38,030 bases of DNA from a virus: IMG/VR virus record IMGVR_UViG_3300028595_000030, positions 1 to 38,030 of that record; one strand, 5' to 3'. Below the pieces are notes generated by a model. That model made no database searches, was not told where the DNA came from, and was given only the letters and a program-made list of their open reading frames with translations. Positions 6,687 through 38,030 of this stretch are shown here, piece by piece. Within the stretch, counting starts at the first letter, position 1; every line of letters begins with the position of its first letter. The position numbers and the translations under genes were made by a program.

Positions 6687-7041
6687 CTTACCCTTTACAA
6701 TTCAAACCAAAAAAATACCCGCCTATAAAAGCGCCTAGCTAGTTCTATAGCAACTTAAAAAGCTAAACTAGTTATCTAGGACTCCTTAACTCGGAAGCTA
6801 AGTTTCTGCCTTTCCACTTGCGTCTTAAAACTTAAAAATAAAAATACTTTATACTTACAACTTTAACCTTAATACTTCCCAGAGATAAGTTGTGTACATA
6901 ATAGGACTCGAACCTATATCATTTCTTATGCGTAAAGAACGCTCAGCCATTTGAGCTATATGTAATAAGTTATTGTAGTTTCTAAGTGACTACACACTTT
7001 TAAGTTTTTTAGTTTTCTCTTTTACATCGGGTATAGTTATA
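6687..7041. other. 355-bp gap without protein genes, holding the tRNA-like gene
   Basis: I find no convincing reading frame on either strand. The right half holds the tRNA-like sequence (6893-6965). The left half (6700-6890) contains 'GGCAGAAACTTAGCTTCCGAGTTAAGG' when read on the minus strand in pieces: an anticodon-arm-like hairpin (CTTA/TAAG) but no T-arm or acceptor stem, so a decayed second tRNA is only a guess. AT content rises near 6830-6870. Confidence 0.5.
6893..6965 (-). tRNA. tRNA-like gene, anticodon CGC by position (tRNA-Ala?) with A at position 33
   Basis: Read on the minus strand it folds as a 73-nt cloverleaf: acceptor TTACATA/TATGTAC (six of seven pairs; first pair T-C), D arm GCTC/GAGC with an 8-nt loop containing GG, anticodon stem TTCTT/AAGAA, 5-nt variable region, T arm ATAGG/CCTAT with loop TTCGAGT, discriminator A. 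The 7-nt anticodon loop is TACGCAT, so standard numbering gives anticodon CGC (Ala, codon GCG). Position 33 is A rather than the near-universal T, and no CCA is encoded. It is either a divergent working tRNA, a tRNA-like element (for example a decoy for host nucleases) or a decaying copy. Confidence 0.65.
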
Positions 7042-10548: not shown

Positions 10549-10934
10549 TCTCCTACCTCCTTAAAGTCTTCATCGTATTCGCTAAGCCAAGCGTCTAGTG
10601 CTTCTTGTGGAGTTTTATAACAACGGGAACTTTTATAGTGATCAATGCGGACATCTTCATCAGTTATAAAAATACTTTGGACTTTTCTTTTCAAAATAGC
10701 ATCAGATACAATCACCCATATAGTTTCGCCTATATCAAACTTAGGCTGAAAGGTTTTAGGCTCTTCTGCTCTTGTGTCCCATGCTTGCCATGCTCGTTTC
10801 TTACTTGAATACGTCGCAGAGCTACTTCCACAATCTTCACAGGAAACCAACCAAGAGTCTTCTGTAGTTAAGCTTTTGAGTGCTTCTAGCTCAGGTAGAC
10901 CACCACAGTAAGGGCACTTCTTATGCTCGCTCAT
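10545..10934 (-). CDS. Second Lar-like zinc protein with beta domain
   Basis: A 129-residue protein. Zinc ribbon: 'KKCPYCGG' (Cys7, Cys10), 'VSCEDCGS' (Cys32, Cys35), closing with 'AWQAWDTR' as in Lar-type domains (the Trp-Asn is Trp-Asp here). Residues about 60-115 repeat the design of the paralogue at 9519: 'FDIGETIWVIV', strands, then 'CYKTPQEALDAWL'. Restriction alleviation is a possible role by family, not shown. It overlaps both neighbours by four bases. Confidence 0.6.
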   Translation of the reverse strand: MSEHKKCPYCGGLPELEALKSLTTEDSWLVSCEDCGSSSATYSSKKRAWQAWDTRAEEPKTFQPKFDIGETIWVIVSDAILKRKVQSIFITDEDVRIDHYKSSRCYKTPQEALDAWLSEYDEDFKEVGE

Positions 10935-11224
10935 TTCTTTTCCTCCACTAGCTCGTATGTTTGTTCAAAAGCTTTTGCAGATAAAACTTCAAACTCCTTA
11001 GCCGGACGGTTTATTATATAATCCCCATGATTAGCAAAATATTGGTGAAAGCGATCCTTCTTAAAAGTTGCTACGAAGTATCTCGTCTGATCAGTTATTC
11101 CAGATGAAACTTCAACCTCCCTCTTATCTATAGCTTTCTGGAACCACTCAGGATACTCAGTCTTGCCATCAACTCTAAGCTGAAACGCTTCAATCTCTAC
11201 TGGCTTTTTTCTGTACTTTGGCAT
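10931..11224 (-). CDS. 'KYRKKPVEIEAFQ' family phage protein, copy A
   Basis: A 97-residue protein beginning MPKYRKKPVEIEAFQL, a signature of a very common but uncharacterised small phage protein family: E-A-x-x-(F/W), P-E-W, beta strands, 'GDYIINRP', then 'F-x-x-T-Y-E'. It is a tandem duplicate of the gene at 11322: the first 18 codons are almost identical in DNA and the proteins then diverge strongly. Function unknown. Confidence 0.7.
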   Translation of the reverse strand: MPKYRKKPVEIEAFQLRVDGKTEYPEWFQKAIDKREVEVSSGITDQTRYFVATFKKDRFHQYFANHGDYIINRPAKEFEVLSAKAFEQTYELVEEKK

Positions 11225-11280: not shown

Positions 11281-11322
11281 TTGCCAATATAAAAACGTGG
11301 CTCCAGTTGGTATATCCTCCAC
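11197..11322 (-). CDS. 41-residue protein between duplicated genes
   Basis: Starts at a GTG that overlaps the stop of the upstream gene (TAGTG) and reads (M)EDIPTGATFLYWQEAKKIAIQML..., running 28 bp into the next gene in another frame. The helical core 'KKIAIQMxLDYE' is repeated as a fragment before the other paralogue (about 11600-11650) but there it is closed upstream by a stop, so this copy is the only open one. It may be a real small gene whose partner copy has decayed. Confidence 0.45.
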   Translation of the reverse strand: MEDIPTGATFLYWQEAKKIAIQMLLDYERENTQCQSTEKSQ

Positions 11323-11597
11323 TATTCCTCCAATAGCTCGTATGTTTGTTTCATATACACAGGGCACCAAACTTCAATAGAACCATCTGAGAGCTTGACT
11401 ATATAATCCCCTAGTCCCGCTCTCATGTCTTCAATCTCAACTTGAAAACATCCTGTCCCTTCATCTGAGTATCCAGACTGTATTTGAGCCTCGCCGCTTA
11501 TTAGTAGCTTCTGAAACCACTCAGGGAAATCAGTCTTACCATCTGTATTAAGCTGAAACGCTTCAATCTCTACTGGCTTTTTTCTGTATTTTGGCAT
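11322..11597 (-). CDS. 'KYRKKPVEIEAFQ' family phage protein, copy B
   Basis: A 91-residue protein with the same opening as copy A. The middle is different (SGYSDEGTGCFQVEIEDMRAGLGDYIVKLSDGSIEVWCP) and closer to the usual family form, where Gly-Asp-Tyr-Ile-(I/V)-Lys is followed by a Gly and a Pro/Cys before the closing Thr-Tyr-Glu. It probably resembles the ancestral copy more. Function unknown. Confidence 0.7.
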   Translation of the reverse strand: MPKYRKKPVEIEAFQLNTDGKTDFPEWFQKLLISGEAQIQSGYSDEGTGCFQVEIEDMRAGLGDYIVKLSDGSIEVWCPVYMKQTYELLEE

Positions 11598-13363: not shown

Positions 13364-13699
13364 TTAGCGGGTTTTTTTTGTTTTTTTTGGTAGTCTCAAT
13401 CCTAACTCAATTCTTGCCATCCTGTCACCAATTAATTTTTCAAAGCACTTGTCGCAGACAGATACAGCCAAGTTTTTTTTATTTGTACATATATGCGCTG
13501 GCGTTTTCTTGTCGTGATAAATCAGTCGGCAAACAAAACATGTATATGGTGCTCCTTTTTCTTTATATGCTTTTGATTCTTTCCAGGCTTTTGGCCTCTC
13601 TTGCTTAACTGAGCCTTGAGCCTCCAAATCCTCCATAGTCTCATAGAACGGCTGTAGCCACTCTTTAACCTTCGCTTGCTTCCGCTTATCTATCCCCAT
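13364..13699 (-). CDS. Zinc-finger protein
   Basis: A 111-residue protein with two Cys pairs: 'YTCFVCRLIYHD' and 'VSVCDKCFEKL', with 'AHICTNKK' between, a treble-clef-like layout. N- and C-termini are basic (MGIDKRKQAKVKEW; RLPKKTKKTR), so nucleic-acid binding is likely. It overlaps the helicase-loader-like gene by 14 bp, so it may take part in replication. Confidence 0.6.
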   Translation of the reverse strand: MGIDKRKQAKVKEWLQPFYETMEDLEAQGSVKQERPKAWKESKAYKEKGAPYTCFVCRLIYHDKKTPAHICTNKKNLAVSVCDKCFEKLIGDRMARIELGLRLPKKTKKTR

Positions 13700-14267
13700 T
13701 ACCTATCTCTAATTGCTTTACGGTTTTTGTTACTAAACTACTTACTTTTGTGTTTTGCTTATCTTCTTCCTTGTAAATCAATCTAGGGTGTTTTTGATGT
13801 CTCTTGTCTCTTATATCCAATGACTGTTGGGCATTTCTCATTTTCTCTAAAGGGATTTTCCTACATTCTTGCATCAATTCATTGTAAATTTTCTCTTGTC
13901 TTTTCTCGACCCAAATCATTTCCTCGCTTGTCGGTCCAGGTGCTCCAGTCGGATGATATGGGCGAACGCTTCCTTCTTCTTTCACAGCTCGTTGGTAATA
14001 ATAATTATTCTTAGCTTTTGCCTGTTGGAATGTTGTAGTAAGCGAAGGCATAAGTAAGTTTTGAGCATTTTCTATGATATTCTCAGGTTGAGGAGGTTTG
14101 TTGTATTGGTCTTCTTTTTGATACAGCCTAAGAGCCGCGTAGGCGAGGTTAGTGGGCAGTTTATGGCAAACATTAGCCCAATGCTCGGCCGCAGCTTCGT
14201 TTAGCGTCATGCCCGAATATAAGCCTGCTATCGTATTTACAAATTTTTGCATTTCTTCAACAGTCAT
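13686..14267 (-). CDS. Helicase loader (G39P-like)
   Basis: A 193-residue protein. The N-terminal 65 residues (EEMQKFVNTIAGLYSGMTLNEAAAEHWANVC..LPTNLAYAALRLYQKED..NKPPQPENIIENA) fit the helical N-terminal domain of the SPP1 G39P group (loader/inhibitor of the replicative helicase): I-A-x-x-Y, a Trp in the second helix, then a helix and 'PPQPENI' as the closing Pro-Pro motif. The C-terminal half is charged and probably flexible, also as in that family, where it contacts the helicase. Position right after the initiator gene supports it: initiator, loader, host helicase. Confidence 0.72.
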   Translation of the reverse strand: MTVEEMQKFVNTIAGLYSGMTLNEAAAEHWANVCHKLPTNLAYAALRLYQKEDQYNKPPQPENIIENAQNLLMPSLTTTFQQAKAKNNYYYQRAVKEEGSVRPYHPTGAPGPTSEEMIWVEKRQEKIYNELMQECRKIPLEKMRNAQQSLDIRDKRHQKHPRLIYKEEDKQNTKVSSLVTKTVKQLEIGNGDR

Positions 14268-14276
14268 TGTCTCACC

Positions 14277-15095
14277 TTATATGTCAATTATATCTTGTTG
14301 TTTTCCAAAAACTCTTTCTAAGACTTCTTGGTTTTTTTCTACTCTATTTTTGTATCCTTTAACATTCCCTCCGCTTTGAATCCCTATTAATTTTTGTGCT
14401 TTTTCTATAAAGTCAGGTGAATACATCCTCCGAATATGTGTTTCTTGCTTGCGAGCCTTTCGAGCATTCGTTGTATCGCTCTGTAGCCAGTTATCAATAG
14501 TTTCCATCACTAAAGGCATGAGTTTTAAACTTAAGCCTTTTCCCCTATACCAATCAGCAGCTTTCTCATATTGATTGTCAGAGCATCTAAAATAAACCAT
14601 GTCTCGCTGAACCTTAATCACGTCTTCGGGTTTAATATTAATTATTCCATTATTGTTCTTATTGTTCTTATTGTTCTTATTGTTCTTATTTGATGTGGTT
14701 ACTTGTTGGTTGCTTGTTGGTTGCTTGTTGGTTGCTTGTTGGTTATCCGTTGGTTGCTCTTTTGGTTGTTTACGGCCTTCTTCGGATTGATATTCTTTAT
14801 ATTTACAAATGCTTACAATGGAAAACTTGTTGGTTGTTTTGATGGTTATTTCCTGGGTTGTTTCTAGCTTCTTAAGAGCAGTTCGTATCTGAGTCTCTGA
14901 TAATTCTAAATCTTTAGCTAAAGCTTTTCTGCCAGTAACTACACTTCCTTTTGATATTTCGTGCCCCATGAATCTACTCGTTTCGTAGTTCGCCATCAAT
15001 AATAAATGCATAAAAACCCTGAATGTATTGGCATCTTGATACCACTCCCATTTAGTGATTTTTCGATGCAGACTAACCCACCCTTCGCTTGACAT
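14277..15095 (-). CDS. Replication initiator protein (O-like, winged helix)
   Basis: A 272-residue protein. Residues 4-100 (GWVSLHRKITKWEWYQDANTFRVFMHLLLMAN...GSVVTGRKALAKDLELSETQIRTALKKLETTQEI) form the winged-helix domain common to phage DnaD/O-like initiators. Residues about 105-150 are Gln/Asn/Thr/Lys-rich and unstructured, encoded by two tandem DNA arrays (9-bp and 11-bp units). The C-terminal part (about 150-272) is helical. In lambda the O gene holds the origin iterons inside itself; the same arrangement is visible here. The ATG is preceded by an 11-bp repeat array that also supplies its ribosome site (TAGGTAGGG). Confidence 0.82.
   Translation of the reverse strand: MSSEGWVSLHRKITKWEWYQDANTFRVFMHLLLMANYETSRFMGHEISKGSVVTGRKALAKDLELSETQIRTALKKLETTQEITIKTTNKFSIVSICKYKEYQSEEGRKQPKEQPTDNQQATNKQPTSNQQVTTSNKNNKNNKNNKNNNGIINIKPEDVIKVQRDMVYFRCSDNQYEKAADWYRGKGLSLKLMPLVMETIDNWLQSDTTNARKARKQETHIRRMYSPDFIEKAQKLIGIQSGGNVKGYKNRVEKNQEVLERVFGKQQDIIDI
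14652..14687. repeat. 9-bp tandem repeat inside the initiator gene
   Basis: Four perfect units of ATTGTTCTT on the plus strand, encoding Lys-Asn-Asn repeats in the initiator's linker. It is AT-rich and purely pyrimidine/T-biased on one strand, suitable as a DNA unwinding element beside the 11-bp array. Confidence 0.9.
14705..14759. repeat. 11-bp iteron array inside the initiator gene
   Basis: Five units at an exact period of 11: three perfect GTTGGTTGCTT (14705, 14716, 14727), one degenerate (GTTGGTTATCC, 14738) and one with a single change (GTTGGTTGCTC, 14749). An 11-bp period puts every unit on the same face of the helix. Because 11 is not a multiple of 3, the reading frame shifts through the array; keeping it suggests the DNA, not the peptide, is selected. 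Confidence 0.88.
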
Positions 15096-15149
15096 CCCTA
15101 CCTAGCCCCTACTTAGTCCTTACTTAGCGCCTATCTAAGCCCTACTTAT
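15095..15149. repeat. 11-bp iteron array in the initiator leader
   Basis: Five units at period 11 with consensus NCCCTACTTAG (plus strand), at 15095, 15106, 15117, 15128 and 15139; the fourth is the most diverged. The array starts at the first base of the initiator's ATG and runs upstream past the stop of the preceding gene (15142). On the minus strand CTAAGTAGGG therefore forms the ribosome-binding site, so a protein bound here, or to the message, could control initiator synthesis. Confidence 0.88.
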
Positions 15150-15321
15150 CAAGATCAACATTCTCAGGATTTCGTTTGTGTTTTTTTGCAAAATCCGTGA
15201 GCACTCGCCTAATCCAATATGATTCGCTTTCTTCTCTTTCGCCTAACTCTTTATAAAATCGCTTTAGCCACTCATCCGCGGTTGTAGACATCCAGCAAGG
15301 TTTTTTATTCTTTTTAGCCAT
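15142..15321 (-). CDS. Ribbon-helix-helix-like regulator
   Basis: 59 residues from ATG 15321, after AAGGAT; an in-frame ATG at 15360 is possible but has no site. The sequence has a short strand (KPCWMST), a helix (ADEWLKRFYKELGE) and a second helix (SESYWIRRVLTDFAKKHKR), the spacing of Arc/CopG-type dimers, in which the strand pairs contact DNA. It sits between a perfect inverted repeat (15343-15357) and the initiator iterons, so autoregulation and control of replication are plausible. The family match is judged by pattern only. Confidence 0.55.
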   Translation of the reverse strand: MAKKNKKPCWMSTTADEWLKRFYKELGEREESESYWIRRVLTDFAKKHKRNPENVDLDK

Positions 15322-15342
15322 AATATCCTTTCTACTCTCATT

Positions 15343-15357
15343 TTGACCATTAGTCAA
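15343..15357. promoter_or_regulatory. Palindromic operator candidate TTGAC-N5-GTCAA
   Basis: Plus strand TTGACCATTAGTCAA: arms TTGAC/GTCAA around a 5-nt centre. It lies about 25 bp before the start of the ribbon-helix-helix-like gene. On the minus strand it also contains TTGACT, a -35-like hexamer, followed 17 bp later by a weak TAGAAA. Confidence 0.5.
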
Positions 15358-15358
15358 C

Positions 15359-15380
15359 AATTAATAAGCAATTAATAGGC
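15359..15380. repeat. Two 11-bp direct repeats
   Basis: AATTAATAAGC followed at once by AATTAATAGGC (one change), again at period 11, and a third weaker unit to 15391. AT-rich; it extends the repeat-rich origin region. Confidence 0.7.
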
Positions 15381-15412
15381 AGTTTTAAGACTTGCCCAGG
15401 TCCGGTTTGTTG

Positions 15413-16339
15413 CTATTTTTTCTCGGTGATCTTTGTTAACCTATAGATTTCGTCGTGACATGCTGTTAGCGTAGTAAATCGCTCTTGGATCGATTTATAG
15501 AGCTTTTCGTCTTCTGCTTTTTTAAGTGCTTCGGCTTTTGCTTTGCGCTCAGCATCGAGCCGCTCTTGCTCTTTTCGTCGTGCTTCCTCCAAAGCTATTT
15601 CTTTCTCTTCCTCAGCTCTGCGCTGAGCCGCTTCAGCCGCTTCCACACGCTTTCTTTCAGCTTCTAGCTGCTCTTGCTTAGCCGCTTCCAGTTGTTCGCG
15701 CAGCTTGCGATTTTCAGCTTCTATAGCTTCTTGCTTTTCTCGCTCGATCCGCTCCTTTTCAGCCGCTTCAGCTCTAACTTTCGCCGCTTCCTCTTCAAGC
15801 TTTCTAAGATGCTCCGCTTGCTTTGCTTCCTCTGCTTTCTTTCTTGAGTATGCTAGAGCGTGAAAGTCTAAAACTTCTTCAAAAGTTTCATCGTCAAACT
15901 TTAAACACTCTTCGATTACGCTGAATGGCGCTTCAACTTCGGCTAGAAGGCGCTGCATTCGCTTGCCACGCTCAATTGCTTGTTGCTTTTGCTCTTCTGC
16001 TCTTCTCTTTTTTTCTTCGTCTACAGGCTTAATTTGGCCGTCCAGGTGCTCAACAATTTTAGTGAGCGGAGCTTTAATTTCCTTTGCTTTGCCGTCAATT
16101 GCTCGTGTCGCATCAAGAAAAGGCTTTTTAAAAGTCACGCGCTGCTCTTCAACTACTTTCAACGCTTTTTTAACTTCTTTTCGTGCTTCTTTGCATAGTG
16201 CGTATCCTTCGCCGTCACTAAACCCGCACACTCTAAGCTCAAGATGCTCTTTAAATTTTTCAATCGCTGCATCGGTCGCGTCAAATTTCACCATCTCGCG
16301 AAACTTAGGATCTAAATCTACTATTTCTATTTCTGACAT
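15413..16339 (-). CDS. DUF1351-like coiled-coil protein
   Basis: A 308-residue protein. Residues about 35-130 ('YALCKEARKEVKKALKVVEEQRVTFKKPFLDATRAIDGKAKEIKAPLTKIVEHLDGQI') match the helical-hairpin pattern of the phage DUF1351 family, often encoded next to single-strand annealing proteins. Residues about 165-285 are a long, highly charged Glu/Ala/Lys/Arg coiled coil. It would form elongated oligomers. Located right after the annealing-protein-like gene, it probably works with it in recombination-dependent replication. It starts after GGGTAGGGAAA. Confidence 0.68.
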   Translation of the reverse strand: MSEIEIVDLDPKFREMVKFDATDAAIEKFKEHLELRVCGFSDGEGYALCKEARKEVKKALKVVEEQRVTFKKPFLDATRAIDGKAKEIKAPLTKIVEHLDGQIKPVDEEKKRRAEEQKQQAIERGKRMQRLLAEVEAPFSVIEECLKFDDETFEEVLDFHALAYSRKKAEEAKQAEHLRKLEEEAAKVRAEAAEKERIEREKQEAIEAENRKLREQLEAAKQEQLEAERKRVEAAEAAQRRAEEEKEIALEEARRKEQERLDAERKAKAEALKKAEDEKLYKSIQERFTTLTACHDEIYRLTKITEKK

Positions 16340-16429: not shown

Positions 16430-17326
16430 CTAGTAATCTAAATCTTGGTCTGGATCGCCTAAAGCTTTTTCCATTTCTATATCGTGTCTAAGTTTTTCGT
16501 CTCGTGCTAGTGCTGCAAGCTCCTCTTCCTTTTTTGCCGCAAGCTTTTCTTTATACTCTTCTCGCAGCTCGTTCATGCGTGCTTCGATCGCGTGGATCGC
16601 ATATTCCGACATATCCGGCATGTATTTATCTAAGTGTTTTTTGAGGAAAATTCCGTTGTCGACTTTTGAAATCGGTTGACCTTTTTTTGAGCCAAATTCC
16701 ATGATGTACTCGCCAGTCTCCAGCGCTCGTTCCAACTTCTCAGACTTCATACGCTCAGAGTTTGCAGCTCTCATACGTGCTTCGTCTTCAGCCGCAGCGT
16801 TGTCAATCGCTTCTAGCTCTGCGTGTATTTCCTCTTGCTCTTCTATTTCTTGCGCCTCTTCCTGCGTATAAATTGCACCTGCAAAAACATCAGCGCAGTA
16901 CCATCTTGCGCCGTTCGTTAATGCTCTGGCAAAAAGCATATTACGAGGATATTTGCTGTAATTCCCACCGCTTAATCCTGCTTTTTTTGCATCAGACATC
17001 GAAAACGAGGATTCTCCTATCGATTCTTTGTCTTGCAAAAATTCAATAACGCATACCTCGTCTGTCATTTTCTTGATGCGATAATCGTATTTACCGCTTT
17101 TTTTAATAAGGTTAGCGATACAAGATGAGTTCGGTGCTGCTTTCCCTTTGATGATATCCACACCCCGCATTGCGGCAAAGGGTCCTAGACCTAGCTCTTT
17201 ACCTGCTAGAATTTTTACAATCGCCTGACTTTGAGTTTTTACGTCTGGAAACATCCCCGACTGGATAAAAACCTTAGCCATATCTTGCATTTCCTGAAAG
17301 TTTGTTATTGCTAGCTCTTTACTCAT
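16430..17326 (-). CDS. Annealing-protein-like (RecT-type) protein with ExoX-like C-terminal domain
   Basis: A 298-residue protein. Residues 10-160 match a widespread phage group annotated as RecT-type recombinase: 'FIQSGMFPDVKTQSQAIVKILAGKELGLGPFAAMRGVDII', then 'GKYDYRIKKMTDE', 'SDAKKAGLSGGNYSKYPRNMLFARALTNGARWYCADVF'. Residues about 205-235 ('GEYIMEFGSKKGQPISKVDNGIFLKKHL') fit the small domain at the C-terminus of exodeoxyribonuclease X (F-G-x-x-K-G-x-x-x). The N-terminal part would anneal single strands. A charged helical linker joins the two and another ends the protein. It sits directly before the DUF1351-like gene in the transcript. Confidence 0.72.
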   Translation of the reverse strand: MSKELAITNFQEMQDMAKVFIQSGMFPDVKTQSQAIVKILAGKELGLGPFAAMRGVDIIKGKAAPNSSCIANLIKKSGKYDYRIKKMTDEVCVIEFLQDKESIGESSFSMSDAKKAGLSGGNYSKYPRNMLFARALTNGARWYCADVFAGAIYTQEEAQEIEEQEEIHAELEAIDNAAAEDEARMRAANSERMKSEKLERALETGEYIMEFGSKKGQPISKVDNGIFLKKHLDKYMPDMSEYAIHAIEARMNELREEYKEKLAAKKEEELAALARDEKLRHDIEMEKALGDPDQDLDY

Positions 17327-36721: not shown

Positions 36722-37969
36722 ATGGCAGACGCAACATTACAAGCAATACTATCGCAATACCAAAATCAGCCTAACATGTGGGCGCAGATGAATCGGGGCA
36801 TCCAACAGTATCAGATGCCGGCATCCGCATACGGGGCGAAAGGTAGCCCTATAGTGGCCGCTTTGCAGGGGCTTGCTAGTGGCTACACTGGCAGTCGTGC
36901 GCAGGCTCAAGAGCAACAGAACCAAGCGGGTTTGCAGCAAGCGTTACAGCAGTATGAAGCACAACAGAGGCAACAGAAGCAAGCCGACTGGAAAGCACAA
37001 CAAGAGTTTTTAACTGGGCAACGTGTTAGTCAAGCAAACCAAATAGCTAAAACACAACAGGAGATGGAGCAGGCTAATTTTCCTCAGAAGTTGAAACAAG
37101 AAGGGCAGCTAGCCGGAGCAAGAGCGGCGGCAAAGGCAAAATACACCAAAGCTGGAACGCAATATTCCCCTAGCGATGAATTTGCTTCCGTTATGGCTAA
37201 AAAGTTAGTAAAAAGGGGTTCTTTTGCAGATGAAGAAACTGCCTTTAATGCTGTTAAAAAAGACTTTAAAGGCTTTGAATCTTTGCAAAAAGAAAGAAGG
37301 CTAGACCTTGCTCAACAACAGCAAGAAGGCGTTTCTAGTAGGTTCCAAGACAAGCTTTCAAGAAGTGATGCAGAGCGTGTAATCCCAGGTTACACAGTCG
37401 AAAGTGGACGTTTAACTTCAGAACAAGCAGGGAAAATCAAAGAACAAAATAAAGACACTGAGAAGCTAATTAATACATTATATGAAATTTCGGGGCGTGA
37501 TCTTTCTAAGTATATGGGCGAAGGTAGTTCGATGAACCAAGCTCTTGCAGGGCAAGCGTTTAATATATGGAGAATAGCAACGGGATCTGGTGCAAGGCTT
37601 GAAGGTATTGAAGGTACTATCATTGAAAATATGACACCTGCCGCAATGGCTCATGACCCTGTAAGAGCAATCGGGGAATGGCTAAAAGGGCGTGACCAAA
37701 ATACATTTGCAGTTGAATTAGCTAAATTTGTAGAAAAAGAACACGATGCATCCTTGTTAGCTTATGGCATTAAGAAACAAGGTGTTTCTGATGATTACTA
37801 TTCAAATCGTATGAAAACAAGATATCCCGAATTGTTTCCTAACGCTAAAAAAGATCGGGAACAAGCTACTATAACGCCTTTGAGTAGTGAACCTAACCCA
37901 ACAAATTATAAGTCATTAGATGAATACCAAGCGGAGCTGTTAAAATGGCACCAACAGAACAAGAAATAA
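36722..37969 (+). CDS. Ejection/internal virion protein, Gln-rich
   Basis: A 415-residue protein. The N-terminal 120 residues are Gln/Ala-rich ('YQNQPNMWAQMNRGIQQYQMPASAYG... EQQNQAGLQQALQQYEAQQRQQKQADWKAQQEF' region) and helical, the middle has 'ARAAAKAKYTKAG', and the C-terminal half is charged with a weakly hydrophobic segment near 270-290. It ends 'EYQAELLKWHQQNKK'; its last 25 bases overlap the start of the 701-residue gene. The last 109 bp also occur at the left window edge as part of the terminal repeat. Function by position: DNA ejection. Confidence 0.62.
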   Translation: MADATLQAILSQYQNQPNMWAQMNRGIQQYQMPASAYGAKGSPIVAALQGLASGYTGSRAQAQEQQNQAGLQQALQQYEAQQRQQKQADWKAQQEFLTGQRVSQANQIAKTQQEMEQANFPQKLKQEGQLAGARAAAKAKYTKAGTQYSPSDEFASVMAKKLVKRGSFADEETAFNAVKKDFKGFESLQKERRLDLAQQQQEGVSSRFQDKLSRSDAERVIPGYTVESGRLTSEQAGKIKEQNKDTEKLINTLYEISGRDLSKYMGEGSSMNQALAGQAFNIWRIATGSGARLEGIEGTIIENMTPAAMAHDPVRAIGEWLKGRDQNTFAVELAKFVEKEHDASLLAYGIKKQGVSDDYYSNRMKTRYPELFPNAKKDREQATITPLSSEPNPTNYKSLDEYQAELLKWHQQNKK

Positions 37970-38030
37970 AAGAGATTGCCCGCATAAAATGGGAGGCGGC
38001 ACAAAAATGGGAGGCGGCACAGCAAGCATC
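37859..38030. repeat. Terminal redundancy, right copy
   Basis: Second copy of the 172-base overlap at 1-172. It contains the end of the 415-residue gene and the first 28 or so codons of the 701-residue gene, whose full copy is at 87-2192. Removing one copy gives a unit of 37,858 bp in which the plus-strand virion genes are continuous across the edge. Confidence 0.95.

Follow-up and report, generated by a model that had tools for sequence, protein, structure and literature searches.

A predicted replication origin of 11-bp iterons and an A-rich tail inside the initiator gene of a phage and its relatives

Do the tandem repeats within a phage initiator gene serve only the peptide that they encode, or do they form the replication origin on which the encoded protein acts? 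We asked this of the window, the 38,030-nt viral sequence IMGVR_UViG_3300028595_000030, in which a minus-strand gene for a putative initiator carries an array of 11-bp repeats (iterons) followed by an A-rich 9-bp array, hereafter the tail. Positions 14650-14768 are very probably the replication origin of this phage, located inside the linker part of its own initiator gene and working by the mechanism proposed below. The arrays, their conservation as DNA and a covariation between protein residues and repeat bases were computed directly. The features concerned are the following.

14277-15095, minus strand: initiator gene (272 aa) with a winged-helix domain, a disordered linker encoded by the putative origin, and a helical C-terminal part
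14787-15095, minus strand: codons of the winged-helix domain, residues 1-103 (AlphaFold2 model)
14928-14930, minus strand: codon of Arg56, the first residue of helix 2 of the predicted helix-turn-helix (HTH); predicts CC over CA in the iteron
14892-14894, minus strand: codon of residue 68 (Thr here), the second residue of the predicted recognition helix; Gln, Arg and Lys go with AAC, GAC and GGC in relatives
14696-14768, minus strand: 11-bp iteron array, coding-strand unit AACCAACAAGC, ∼6.5 to 7 units
14650-14690, minus strand: 9-bp array AATAAGAAC, A-rich AAN triplets on the coding strand and TnnT triplets on the opposite strand
14280-14630, minus strand: codons of the helical C-terminal part, residues 156-272, a candidate partner-binding domain (model of moderate confidence)

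Tandem Repeats Finder and a repeat finder detected both arrays and two others upstream of the gene, confirming all four arrays that a sequence-only reading of the window had noted; the extents of the two internal arrays are revised to those listed above. Our null model consisted of 50 first-order Markov genomes, in which matches were counted at the given lag or at any lag from 5 to 30. The internal 11-bp array (spacings 12, 11, 11, 11, 11, and 11) matches itself at lag 11 in 49 of 62 positions, which none of the 50 Markov genomes reached at any lag. The 9-bp array comprises 4.6 perfect copies, and its 32/32 matches at lag 9 were equalled in 0/50 genomes. With the initiator on the minus strand, the repeat GTTGGTTGCTT is read functionally in reverse complement, which gives a rotation of AACCAACAAGC; this unit is an 11-bp direct repeat that lacks self-complementarity. 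Along the coding strand, the order is winged-helix codons, AACCAACAAGC units (14768 to 14696), AATAAGAAC (14690 to 14650), and C-terminal codons, with iterons and AT-rich tract both inside the initiator coding sequence. An extra iteron-like copy, AACAACCAACAAG, is found outside the main array in the codons of the wing (KTTNKFS, 14825-14839, minus strand).

The same plan, an iteron array and then an A-rich tail, recurs at the same position of the gene in ∼170 non-redundant relatives, whose hosts include at least Bacillota, Bacteroidota and Pseudomonadota, as judged from record titles and annotations. A discovery set of 99 non-redundant loci was taken from viral contigs, genomes and named phages, and a hold-out set of 74 loci, non-redundant with respect to the discovery set, came from later searches. 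Most were retrieved with the winged-helix domain alone; the exceptions are a query with the full protein (with patterns including the codon-degenerate peptide NKNNKNNK), one DNA pattern, and a search of whole genomes with the PHROG 2514 profile.

Repeats of this sort might have no function as DNA and merely encode a low-complexity peptide, slippage having expanded a flexible Asn/Gln/Thr/Lys linker. The composition of the linker is indeed of low complexity, the peptide is disordered in our structural model, and the period of the 9-bp array is a multiple of three. We measured lag identity over the 99 nt that follow the winged-helix codons, against a null in which synonymous codons were permuted and the peptide was kept. 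Mean lag-11 identity is 0.52 versus 0.47 in the codon shuffles for the discovery set (z = 19) and 0.48 versus 0.43 for the hold-out set (z = 13.5). Peaks occur only at ∼11, 22, and 33, lag 11 being by far the strongest, and neither the winged-helix nor the C-terminal codons give a lag-11 signal under the same test. Because lag-11 identity exceeds that of peptide-preserving shuffles, the linker DNA itself is under selection; and because 11 is not a multiple of three, successive units fall in different frames, and the peptide therefore cannot be the repeated object. The sequence-only reading had proposed asking in related phages whether the repeats, not the peptide, are conserved, and for the internal arrays the answer is strongly positive.

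Spacing and codon choice are likewise patterned. The first spacing, at the unit farthest from the tail, is 12 bp in 74/110 loci, and later spacings are 11 bp in 344/403 cases; the longer first step is no artefact of our procedure, since the chaining of units mildly favors 11. In the tail, Lys-Asn codon pairs are written AAG-AAY in 106/110 cases versus 14/76 elsewhere in the same genes, a strong preference for AAG over AAA that is weaker when the whole linker of the hold-out set is considered (69/86 versus 30/88). Over 14 triplets of the tail, every third base is A on the coding strand and hence T on the opposite strand.

The iteron unit varies greatly between loci (AACCAACAAGC, CGACCAGCAAT, GGGCAAACAAA, GCGACAAGCGA, and others), and its letters vary with two residues of the winged-helix domain. 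This covariation was first seen by eye in loci L001-L148, without use of structure; in the AlphaFold model, both residues are located at the HTH. At residue 56, Arg pairs with CC and other residues pair with CA. We tested this in the hold-out set with register-free counts and simple cut-offs (three or more CCA; class counts). Three or more CCA are present in 26 of the 28 loci with Arg56, compared with 8 of the 46 with another residue (p = 1e-10). At residue 68, Gln goes with AAC (24/26) and Arg with GAC (12/13), and in hold-out locus L289 the combination of Lys68 and Arg56 goes with GGCC. The class cut-offs were chosen after the hold-out counts had been viewed, residue identities and directions having been fixed earlier.

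In a mutual-information scan of all winged-helix columns, residue 56 has the highest excess for CC/CA (0.48; the second column, neighboring residue 55, reaches 0.17), and residue 68 has the highest for the AAC/GAC/GGC class (0.90, followed by 0.27). Columns shifted by one residue give no such covariation, and the other iteron positions, scanned for further residue-base pairs, yielded nothing comparable. The hold-out loci are homologous to the discovery loci, and we controlled for kinship with edge-disjoint pairs from a tree built without columns 56 and 68. Among 27 pairs that differ at residue 56, 22 show concordant switches and none an opposite one (two-sided sign test, 5e-7); among 31 that differ at residue 68, both members are as predicted in 20 and swapped in none (2e-6). 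The protein of the window has Arg56 together with CC, as predicted. This joint change of repeat letters and DNA-reading residues is strong, though indirect, evidence that the encoded protein recognizes its own gene, and it makes the iterons almost certainly binding sites of the initiator. This tracking, the AAG preference in the tail, and a conserved period of 11 that lies 13-19 standard deviations above the shuffles make a purely coding origin of the repeats most improbable.

Covariation speaks to the specificity of binding, not to its purpose, and the 11-bp array could instead be an operator for autorepression of the initiator; autoregulation may also coexist with an origin. The A-rich tail would be without a role in repression, and we consider an operator in place of an origin very unlikely.

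Several observations weigh against an origin at 14650-14768 or against the generality of the code. The Lys68 rule is weaker than the others, with GGC in 11/19 hold-out loci, 6 unclassed and 2 wrong, and loci L010, L020, and L134 break the Arg56 rule. The window protein has Thr68, a residue with few examples and too rare for a test. No helicase, polymerase or loader was recognized among the window proteins scanned, which leaves the loading step unsupported. There is also no turning point of GC skew at the origin: the turning points, at ∼3.3 and ∼18.7 kb, coincide with switches of gene strand, and skew was rejected as an origin mark because it is governed by gene strand.

Residues 4-147 of the initiator match PHROG 2514 'DnaD-like helicase loader' (E = 8.8e-31), and weaker matches are to 'replication initiation O-like' PHROG families. 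The winged-helix query also retrieves lambdoid O proteins, that of HK022 among them, and a gene of the P22-like phage ST64T. We found no RepA_N match (PF06970) in Pfam, no match in a sequence search for solved structures, and no DnaD-like C-terminal domain, Pfam and PHROG giving just weak end matches beyond residue 147. The AlphaFold2 model, built on 40 relatives, contains a confident winged helix at residues 11-100 (predicted local distance difference test, 92-98) with HTH helices at 56-63 and 67-79, a disordered linker (residues ∼110-155) that coincides exactly with the array-encoding codons, and a helical C-terminal part of moderate confidence. A fold search against the PDB returned winged-helix proteins including TubR and the N-terminal domains of RepA_N proteins (4pql, 4pt7), all with E > 0.001. 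The protein belongs to the DnaD-like/O-like class of phage winged-helix initiators.

From these data we infer initiator binding, opening of the DNA, the order of the steps, and recruitment of the helicase. Each 11-bp iteron would be bound by the winged-helix domain of one initiator molecule. Successive molecules would follow one another head to tail on approximately the same side of the DNA helix, and most of the reading would be done by residue 56 (Arg for CC) and recognition-helix residue 68. The bound initiators may form an O-some-like nucleoprotein array, which would strain and open the adjacent A-rich 9-bp array, a candidate element for unwinding and for loading in a strand-specific manner. 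Once exposed, the strand that carries T in each third position could help to place the host replicative helicase via the C-terminal part of the initiator and a loader. The Asn/Gln/Thr/Lys-rich linker peptide would be mainly a by-product of the DNA code.

An origin inside its own initiator gene is a known kind of arrangement, of which lambda O and pSK41 Rep are examples. In ori-lambda and in Stx phages, iterons and an AT-rich tract lie in the middle of the initiator gene (PMC7466680). The window shares this plan, and HK022 and ST64T, whose genes are annotated as O or gp18-like, have 11-bp arrays in the corresponding part of the gene. The four iterons of lambda are longer (18-19 bp) and palindromic, whereas the units described here are 11-bp non-palindromic direct repeats that lead into a triplet-phased tail; beside the phage initiator we recognized no P-like partner. 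The compact origin on the lambda plan that was proposed from the sequence is supported, with iterons of about one helical turn next to an AT-rich array, both conserved as DNA. In the O-type genes of HK022 (L141) and ST64T (L137), the 11-bp units form two separate clusters, not one.

The repeats bound by the winged-helix N-terminal domain of pSK41 Rep are located within the rep gene, where they encode a dispensable linker peptide (PMC5703833). The RepA_N plasmid initiators (pSK41, pTZ2162) and PLE RepA resemble the phage protein in having a winged-helix N-terminal domain, which in them binds repeats. RepA_N-type domains are among the fold matches (E > 0.001), but the phage protein is without the Pfam match. 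The DnaD-like loaders or replisome organizers of PHROG 2514 share the winged-helix domain and the placement ahead of a helicase or loader gene that is seen in many phages; in the phages that we sampled, the gene after the initiator often encodes a DnaB-type helicase or DnaC-type loader. The PHROG match ends at residue 147, and the annotation of the family is silent on an encoded origin. DnaD of Bacillus subtilis binds pairs of single-stranded 5'-TnnT-3' motifs opposite DnaA-trios (PMC10201434). The strand opposite the A-rich tail carries many such motifs (at least two), an analogy based on resemblance of sequence, but the tail does not follow the strict DnaA-trio consensus.

Three further features lie upstream of the initiator.

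15095-15149, strand unassigned: degenerate 11-bp array NCCCTACTTAG between the small upstream gene and the initiator start
15142-15321, minus strand: small gene (59 aa) directly upstream of the initiator, tentatively a ribbon-helix-helix regulator
15358-15381, strand unassigned: AT-rich 11-bp unit in two copies, upstream of the small gene; weak

The sequence-only reading had taken the intergenic array for further iterons of this initiator and the AT-rich unit for another part of the origin. Such a larger origin would be in keeping with the shared period, the adjacent position, and the detection by Tandem Repeats Finder. The intergenic array consists of five degenerate units with 29/44 matches at lag 11; none of the 50 Markov genomes reached this at lag 11, but 17 did so when the search was widened to lags 5 to 30, and taken alone the array is statistically marginal. 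It is without the ACCA core of the initiator's sites, and in 79 relatives the 120 nt that precede the gene have no excess at lag 11, the window alone having an array there; this marks the array as private to this phage and led us to reject it as a part of the conserved origin. For the AT-rich pair, 12/13 matches were reached in 2/50 Markov genomes. The intergenic array could belong equally well to a regulator that acts on the small upstream gene or is encoded by it, and we regard the larger origin as unlikely. The array is probably a separate operator, for example for the product of the small gene, or partly due to chance, and no piece of the conserved origin.

The small gene product is possibly a ribbon-helix-helix regulator: single-sequence AlphaFold modeling gave two helices (predicted local distance difference test, 65), a fold search gave no match, and Bacillus phage Palmer has an annotated Arc-type ribbon-helix-helix gene at the equivalent place. 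Ahead of the small gene, at 15318-15360 on the minus strand, lies the inverted repeat TTGACTAATGGTCAA, which could be an operator and is overlapped by a weak promoter-like match.

Downstream of the initiator, the product of 13686-14267 (193 aa), earlier described as helicase-loader-like, has no detectable homologue in Pfam, PHROGs, NCBIfam, PDB sequences, phages or viral contigs, and that assignment is unsupported. Searches of viral contigs with this protein and with the RecT-like neighbor revealed no close relatives of the phage. The RecT-like annealing protein (16430-17326, minus strand; PHROG 561, E = 1e-28) is encoded upstream of the origin and is followed by a gene for a coiled-coil protein (15413-16339, minus strand) that matches PHROG families of unknown function. 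Elsewhere in the window, the ends (1-170 and 37859-38030) are identical in sequence, with a slightly different tandem 18-bp repeat (129-163 and 37986-38021), which suggests a circular or end-repeated genome of ∼37.9 kb. A tRNA gene at 6893-6965 (minus strand) is the sole Rfam match. Two adjacent small open reading frames (10931-11224 and 11322-11597, minus strand) have nearly identical starts (MPKYRKKPVEIEAFQL) and seem to have arisen by tandem gene duplication.

Both the 11-bp grammar and the two-residue code appear to be new. We found no description of either in the literature searched, which left out most subscription journals and is weak evidence of novelty, and published text searched for the iteron letters returned nothing relevant. 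Older origin studies of P22, HK022, SPP1, Tuc2009, TP901-1, and A2 may already cover single cases.

We consider it reasonably likely that these loci represent a very widespread and undescribed origin grammar, in which winged-helix initiators of many phages and prophages carry, just after their DNA-binding codons, a cognate 11-bp array (first spacing 12) and an AAN-triplet unwinding element. A code of two residues (56 and 68) would make the origin predictable from the protein and the reverse, and paired specificity switches within one gene would keep initiator and origin matched through phage mosaic exchange. Most phage replication origins are unmapped; if our reading is true, the origin could be read directly from the sequence of any phage or prophage with this initiator, and initiator-origin compatibility would be predictable largely from two residues. 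It would also account for the odd Asn/Gln/Thr/Lys linkers of these proteins. The loci form a natural set of paired protein-DNA specificity changes, including very close sister pairs, that is useful for the study of initiator-site co-evolution within one gene under coding constraint.
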